Below are positions 21,839 to 56,367 of a DNA stretch of 64,000 nucleotides, in pieces. The notes beneath the pieces are model-generated. The model saw nothing but the letters and a program-made list of their open reading frames with translations. It was not told the origin of the DNA and did not search any database. A program made the translations under genes and the position numbers. Source of the stretch: Acidobacteriota bacterium (lineage in GTDB: Bacteria; Acidobacteriota; Vicinamibacteria; Vicinamibacterales; UBA823). The DNA is taken from assembly GCA_002730735.1 (NCBI GenBank), contig PCAU01000001.1, positions 210,925-274,924 of the forward strand, in the 5' to 3' direction. The stretch's first letter is position 1, and each line of letters opens with the position of its first letter.

Positions 21839-22990
21839 TTAACGTTCCCCGCGGGCCAGTTCATCATTGATCACTGTTTCGAAGGTTTCGAACGGTAGGG
21901 CGCCAGAGATCATCCGACCGTTGATGAAGAGCGTTGGCGTAGACGTCACACCGTAGCTTTCCGCCTCCGCGATGTCCTGACGCACCAAGTCTGCTGTCTC
22001 ACCAGAATCCAAACACGCATCGAACGCCAACTGGTCGAGGTCTAACTCTCCGGCGTATCGCTTCAGGTCCGGAATCGCCAGTGCCCGTTGGTTCACGAAC
22101 AGCTTATCGTGGTACTCCCAGAACCGCTCTTGGGCATGCGCGCACTGAGCCGCCTCGGCCGCTTTGAAGGCTTGGGGGTGGGTGCTTAGGGGCAGGTCCT
22201 TAAAGACGAAGCGCACTCGATCACCGTATACCTCGGTGATTCTTTCGAGGGTCGGACCGACCCTCCCACAAAACGGTCACTGAAAGTCGGAGAATTCGAT
22301 GATCTCCACGATGGCGCCCGACGTACCCTTGATTGGGTCGGTCGGCGCGCGTGCAATGGCCATCCGCGGTGGCTCAAGGAGCCGTTCAACTCGCACATCC
22401 AGACTATCTGACAGCTCAGCGATCAGCGTGGCACGTGCTTCTACAGACTGCTGCTGCTGCAAGAAGTTGTTGATCGGCCTACGCAATTGTTCAAGCGTAC
22501 GCCCCTGGGTCTGTTGTTCCCCGAGGCTACTGTAAAACCGCTCAACGTCAGTATCTGTAATCGGTGTCACTCGGGCCGACATTTCCTGTCGTAGAAGCGT
22601 CTCTGGGGTGAGACCTCGATTAGCGGCTTCGATCTCGAGGATCTGATTACCCACAACCATGTCAAGATAAAGGACCAACGCATCGTAGCGTGACTGCGAG
22701 ACCTGCATGAACGACCCGGCGTCGATCTCACGCCAGTGTTCCTCGACCTCGCCGAGCGTAATCTCACGATCACCCACACGCGCGACGACCTCATCCGATA
22801 AACCGAACTGTTGCTTAGAAAGAAGAGCCCCCACGCCCACGACGAGGAGTAGCACGCACGACCAGAGCACACCGCGCTTCAGGCCCATCCCGGAAGACTG
22901 ACCCCCAGTTGGAACATTCGACGGTAGTTGCTCACTATCAGCCATATCGTATAAGACGCGCCCTGCACCCTTCTGGCTTGGTAGCGTCAT
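21839..22990 (-). CDS. SurA_N-DsbA fusion, probable selenoprotein (in-frame UGA at the active-site Cys)
   Basis: Read through one TGA (22277-22279) the frame encodes 383 residues. Residues ~38-57 are a membrane anchor (VLWSCVLLLVVGVGALL), ~65-215 resemble a SurA N-terminal chaperone domain (VARVGDREITLGEVEEHWREID), and the rest is a DsbA-like thioredoxin fold. At the junction the sequence is EFSDFQ-[UGA]-PFCGRVGPTLE, where DsbA relatives have FxDFxCPFC: the UGA (residue 238) replaces the first, reactive Cys. Downstream the fold continues normally to GVTSTPTLFINGR, the cis-Pro region. A SECIS-like hairpin follows the UGA. Without readthrough the protein would stop before its catalytic domain. 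The likely role is a periplasmic thiol oxidase or reductase. Two fragments would be reported by a standard gene finder (22277-22990 and 21839-22216). Confidence 0.88.
22247..22265 (-). promoter_or_regulatory. Bacterial SECIS-like hairpin in the DsbA-like gene
   Basis: Downstream of the UGA, on the minus strand, GAGGGTCGGTCCGACCCTC forms a perfect stem: 7 bp with loop GGUCC, or 8 bp with loop GUC. Numbering from the base after UGA, the loop GGUC occupies 19-22. The E. coli fdhF SECIS, as I recall its sequence, also has GGUC at 19-22 in its apical loop. A G in the first two loop positions and a loop 16-37 bases from UGA are the published requirements for a bacterial SECIS, and both are met. Confidence 0.8.
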
Positions 22991-55902: not shown

Positions 55903-56367
55903 GTGGCCGAGCTCATTCACACCAGCCGAATACGCTTAGAGAAGATTAAGGGTTCACTTCGGCACGCGTACGTCGAAAACTTTAAGGCCCCAATCCGCTT
56001 CGGTATTCATGGCGGCATCAAGAGGTTCTACGGTATCGAACCTGACGAGGAGTTGCCAGCCACCCTCGATCATCTAATTGCGGCGGTTGGTGGTTGACTG
56101 CTTGGCACCTTGGCCGGCGCACTGGAAGTGCGCCAGATCCCGTCTGGTGACGGCTGTCTCACGGCCGCCGTGGAAGGCGACATTGAAGCGGTCGACAAGA
56201 TCCTGCGTATAACCGAGATCCGAGTTCGTTACACACTCAAGATTCCCGCAGGCACCCGCGCAGCGGCTGATCGTGCGCTGACAACTCACGAGAGTAAATG
56301 CCCGGCCGCCGTAAGCGTCCGTAGCTGTATTAAGATTGTGATCACAGCTGATGTGACAGAAGAATAG
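55903..56367 (+). CDS. OsmC-family protein, probable selenoprotein (in-frame UGA at the peroxidatic Cys)
   Basis: Read through TGA 56095-56097 the frame gives 154 residues, normal OsmC length. The first part ends PATLDHLIAAVGG-[UGA]-LLGTLAGALEV, where OsmC proteins have G-C at the peroxidatic Cys. After it come ILRITEIRVRYTLKIP (the R-I-x-V block) and HESKCPAAVSV with the second conserved Cys. So UGA is residue 65, and Sec plus Cys would be the redox pair reducing organic peroxides. GTG 55903 follows a strong AAGGAGG (55891-55897). A SECIS-like hairpin lies 19-37 bases after the UGA. A normal pipeline would report two broken ORFs (55903-56097 and 56110-56367). Confidence 0.88.
56116..56134 (+). 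promoter_or_regulatory. Bacterial SECIS-like hairpin in the OsmC-like gene
   Basis: GGCGCACTGGAAGTGCGCC forms a perfect 7-bp stem (GGCGCAC/GTGCGCC) with loop UGGAA. The loop spans bases 26-30 after the UGA, and its second base is G, which satisfies the bacterial SECIS rule (a G in the first two loop positions, loop 16-37 bases from UGA). The hairpin lies inside the coding sequence for LAGALEVRQ. Confidence 0.72.

Follow-up and report, generated by a model that had tools for sequence, protein, structure and literature searches.

DsbA-like selenoproteins with a UxxC active site were reported in 2008 from the marine GOS metagenomes as 'DsbA 1' (PMC2398784), and appear in a 2026 review as 'DsbA-like protein form 1', under PF01323 and NF041057 (PMC13188914). 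For the bacterial SECIS element, the bSECIS model specifies a loop of 3–9 nt with G in the first two loop positions, a stem of 4–16 bp, a distance of 16–37 nt from the UGA and an energy of −7.5 or lower (PMC13188914).

The UGA codon and its hairpin

The gene in this study lies in a stretch of 64,000 nucleotides from the draft genome of an uncultured Acidobacteriota bacterium, and the whole stretch is referred to here as the window. The gene is very probably a selenoprotein gene, in which the UGA would be read as selenocysteine (Sec). Translation reproduced the claim of the initial annotation that a single minus-strand frame is interrupted by one TGA only, at the first Cys of the active site (EFSDFQ-U-PFC), and that the remainder of the site is undamaged, with the second Cys at residue 241 and the cis-Pro loop (STPTLF) both intact (Table 1). 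The true start is probably Met35, at 22888, because in genome G126 (L122) the stretch upstream of it lacks a Met and runs into a stop within a short distance, and the protein of genus g2 starts at the point matching Met35. On the upstream side the gene is neighbored by a TonB-dependent receptor gene with a tRNA-Gln, and on the other by a DNA-glycosylase and Glu/Gln-tRNA synthetase pair on the opposite strand, with no redox partner adjacent to it in this neighborhood.

Table 1. Positions of the probable selenoprotein gene and its elements in the window.
Feature	Position	Strand	Remarks
ORF of SurA_N-like/DsbA selenoprotein, including stop TAA	21839..22990	minus	383 aa, proposed Sec at 238
Hydrophobic N-terminal segment from Met35, signal or anchor	22808..22888	minus	inferred from hydrophobicity
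SurA_N-like helical N-terminal domain	22355..22795	minus	residues about 66-212
DsbA/Thioredoxin_4 catalytic domain, UPFC site, Thr351-cisPro352	21860..22345	minus	residues about 216-377
In-frame TGA, proposed Sec codon, first Cys of CPFC active site	22277..22279	minus	
Predicted SECIS hairpin GAGGGTCG-GTC-CGACCCTC, 8 bp	22247..22265	minus	+12..+30 after TGA

In its RNA form the hairpin reads GAGGGUCG-GUC-CGACCCUC, and the perfect 8-bp pairing and the GGUC at +19 to +22 after the UGA, as first described, were both confirmed. Compared with the printed values (PMC13188914), the hairpin agrees with all of the bSECIS constraints. The 40-nt stretch containing it has a folding energy of −15 kcal/mol, with a z of only −1.5 against shuffled sequences, and the energy is therefore not used as proof. 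The window holds 80 TGA codons that are preceded by 60 or more open codons and followed by 25 or more; only two of these have, at the SECIS position, a hairpin of at least 7 bp with GG near the tip. An Rfam search of the window returned two tRNAs and nothing else. Another open-flanked TGA, at 56095 on the plus strand, has an 8-bp hairpin with the loop GGA at +27; it is without homology evidence and is probably a chance occurrence.

Conservation and distribution among relatives

A TGA at the same codon was found in 17 genomes of the order, spread over four families, and the hairpin is present in every UGA form. The remaining homologues examined encode Cys (TGC or TGT) in this column, so that Cys, and no other residue, aligns with U, as the initial annotation had proposed to check. 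Among the 14 long UGA forms, the residue at codons +5 to +10 (RVGPTL) is invariant and the codon nearly so, with a synonymous difference of 0–0.26 against a background of 0.45 at conserved columns; in 34 Cys forms both residue and codon vary at these positions. In two genera (L148, L149), AGA...ACT replaces AGG...ACC, which exchanges a G-C for an A-U stem pair through two synonymous changes. As this is the only stem pair that covaries, weight is placed instead on the synonymous constraint and on its restriction to UGA forms. Of about 100 Cys copies, three fold as strongly in the hairpin stretch, and in three a stem of 7–9 pairs occurs somewhere in the 48 bases, which looks like chance.

A DNA pattern scan of 396 Acidobacteriota genomes recovered 13 carriers, nine of them outside the order, with none for the reversed control pattern, and every match sits in a DsbA-like frame that continues past the TGA. 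Since the pattern fixes most of the stem bases, the nine carriers outside the order are not independent proof that the stem is conserved. Past the TGA, dN/dS is 0.11–0.17 within the genus and 0.09 against G126; purifying selection thus acts on this sequence.

These observations bear on two explanations in which the TGA is not a codon for Sec. A pseudogene, or a recent nonsense mutation that happened to strike the Cys codon, would account for a lone stop in an otherwise intact frame, but would not be expected to recur as an identical TGA across many species and genera, with a near-invariant hairpin and a downstream sequence under purifying selection; it is considered highly improbable, in agreement with the view taken when the gene was first noticed. 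A single-base sequencing or assembly error is conceivable in a draft metagenome assembly, but assemblies made independently for several species and genera show the same TGA, which also settles the sequencing-error check set out at the start and makes this explanation more improbable still.

The Sec forms do not make up one clade, since the tree of the DsbA domain needs five changes of Sec, at least three of them forced by well supported branches. This scatter may reflect ancestral Sec with losses or transfer, both of which are compatible with the tree. The nearest Cys relative, in G125 (L125), carries GAGTCGGTCC-AGTTCTT at the hairpin site, a sequence that suggests loss of Sec to Cys with a decayed SECIS. 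This Cys-type sister lies at G125:C5:33954-34970, where the possible decayed SECIS reads GAGTCGGTCCAGTTCTT. The record NZSH01000062.1, titled "Woeseiaceae bacterium EAC2037", matches in sequence G125:C5, a contig from a genome placed in this Acidobacteriota family, and its title looks mislabelled. On the whole, it is rather probable that the genes represent an undescribed Sec form, in Acidobacteriota, of a SurA_N-DsbA family of chaperone-oxidoreductases, in which one near-invariant, RVGPTL-coded SECIS has been kept with the DsbA domain across different N-terminal architectures, with several switches between Sec and Cys among relatives.

Selenocysteine machinery and the decoding of UGA

The source genome, a metagenome-assembled genome (MAG) that is 61% complete, encodes a tRNA-Sec with the anticodon TCA (UCA in the RNA; L001), selA (549 bits) and selD (350 bits). 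The weaker RF01852 matches in this genome are genes for tRNA-Ser, Leu, Trp, Thr, Gly and Tyr. The selD gene has an in-frame TGA of its own, in SSCAGUASK, where SelD usually carries Sec; this locus (L111, 8626-7517 minus, in G000:C1:150000-165000) also has a predicted hairpin after the TGA. No selB was found in the MAG, nor in G004, a 97% complete genome of the same species, and the matches resembling selB in the source genome (G000) are read as other translation GTPases because none reaches the cut-off and the similarity lies mainly in the GTPase part. Elsewhere in the genus, selB was found in each of the three other species, at 326–336 bits. In G004 the matching contig breaks off at the very point where the match ends, upstream of selB, with no flank there (L173), and the simple reading is therefore an assembly gap, which explains the missing gene but does not prove its presence. 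The search for Sec genes that had been suggested for this organism thus succeeded for tRNA-Sec, selA and selD, and for selB in the three congeners but not in the MAG. Across the 17 UGA genomes of the order, selA and tRNA-Sec are each found in 15; the assemblies lacking one or both are G121 (neither, with its copy of the gene on a 3.3-kb contig), G003 (no selA) and G123 (no tRNA-Sec).

Given that Sec insertion into this protein is deduced from sequence, the UGA might instead be read as Trp, Cys or Arg, or serve as regulated termination that yields a SurA_N-only protein. Set against these readings, 16 of the 37 long frames in the window end in TGA, more than in any other stop, the genome has a tRNA-Sec, selA and a Sec-type selD, and the hairpin accompanies UGA and not Cys codons, so that they are regarded as very unlikely. 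For decoding as Sec, we infer that SelB with Sec-tRNA(UCA) would bind the hairpin directly downstream of the UGA, and that Sec would be put in as the N-terminal, attacking residue of the DsbA-type UPFC site.

Architecture, redox role and described relatives

The initial annotation described the product as a fusion of SurA_N and DsbA. The DsbA part is firm, as the catalytic part matches DSBA (PF01323) with 83.2 bits against a Pfam cut-off of 25.6, with U-x-x-C at the active site; the SurA_N part is supported through the family and not by the window protein alone, in which SurA_N_3 gives an E-value of 0.0025, under the Pfam cut-off. This domain is matched by 31 of the 35 aligned family members at an E-value of 0.01 or better, and the N-terminal part of the family profile matches the SurA-type proteins HP_0175 and LIC12922 (PDB chains). 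No PPIase domain was found in the N-terminal part. The AF2 model of the protein has a mean pLDDT of 87, and the PDB matches to this predicted fold are of the DsbA type, including C. diphtheriae DsbA, ScsC and BdbD. In several relatives the hydrophobic segment is followed by a lipobox-like Cys; in the window protein the segment is plain.

Other UGA carriers have different N-termini, being either short with a hydrophobic segment (L057, L155, L195-L199, L203) or part of a neighboring pair (L200), and L202, from outside the order, resembles the SurA_N form. In this pair, L200/L208 (G413:C15:6865-7509), two Sec-DsbA copies that share the UGA and the hairpin are separated by about 600 bases within a single Acidobacteriota genome.

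The product would be anchored at its N-terminus and act outside the cytoplasm, where the SurA_N-like domain, by analogy, probably holds unfolded exported clients, whose disulfides the Sec-DsbA domain would exchange. Whether this exchange amounts to an isomerase or reductase role is, by analogy with characterized enzymes, an evenly balanced question. Net oxidation is somewhat less likely than a reducing or isomerizing role, given the Thr before the cis-Pro and the presence elsewhere in the genome of a VKOR-DsbA fusion of the Cys type (L169, G000:C3:86652-87812, with a CPPC site), which is likely a partner or a parallel disulfide pathway. A Thr precedes the cis-Pro in DsbC and ScsC, and a Val in classical DsbA; selenosulfides tend to be more reducing than disulfides. 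It is also possible, at a little short of an even chance, that Sec is correctly assigned and that, instead of an isomerase-chaperone, the enzyme is a net oxidase partnered with VKOR or an oxidative-stress reductase. Among the nearest structures, several are thiol oxidases, such as BdbD and C. diphtheriae DsbA, and VKOR is encoded in the genome, but it is already fused to a CPPC DsbA domain of its own, Thr-cisPro is invariant across the family, and the reducing tendency of selenosulfides speaks in the same direction.

Ordinary gene callers stop at the UGA, so that the catalytic half of the protein is lost and the family stays hidden in draft genomes. With the Sec form recognized, the selenoproteome of this large and poorly studied phylum would gain an exported enzyme of protein folding, and the Sec/Cys pairs scattered over a single tree, together with the near-invariant SECIS, make it testable whether ancestral Sec was retained with repeated loss or the domain was transferred with its SECIS.

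The novelty first claimed for this protein was overstated in that DsbA/DsbG-like UxxC proteins are already an established class. The literature search on Rcas_1661, on selenoprotein with SurA and on selenocysteine with Vicinamibacter, which covered material other than supplements and subscription papers, found nothing on a SurA_N-DsbA Sec family, no description of the SurA_N fusion with Sec and none of a near-invariant SECIS common to different N-terminal architectures. The protein is therefore placed as a variant within the known class, as it passes PF01323, misses the NF041057 cut-off and had, within that search, no described Sec counterpart with a SurA_N fusion.

With the DsbA-like UxxC selenoproteins of PF01323, the window protein shares the DsbA domain, with Sec in the first and Cys in the second active-site position; the tables of both sources name no SurA_N fusion (PMC2398784; PMC13188914). 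The best NCBIfam match of the catalytic domain is NF041057, the DsbG-like/Rcas_1661 thioredoxin-like (seleno)lipoprotein, which also has UxxC but differs in its N-terminal part: the window protein scores 105.9 bits, not reaching the curated cut-off of 190, and matches the profile only from position 83. ScsC of Proteus mirabilis and C. diphtheriae DsbA/TsdA share the catalytic fold, but both are Cys enzymes, and ScsC also has a helical N-terminal extension that is not SurA_N. In ScsC this extension is a trimerization stalk. The Cys-type SurA_N-DsbA proteins of Acidobacteriota and Myxococcota have the same architecture as the window protein, with 34–54% identity and a CPFC site, but carry TGC or TGT where the window has TGA, and their hairpin codons are unconserved.
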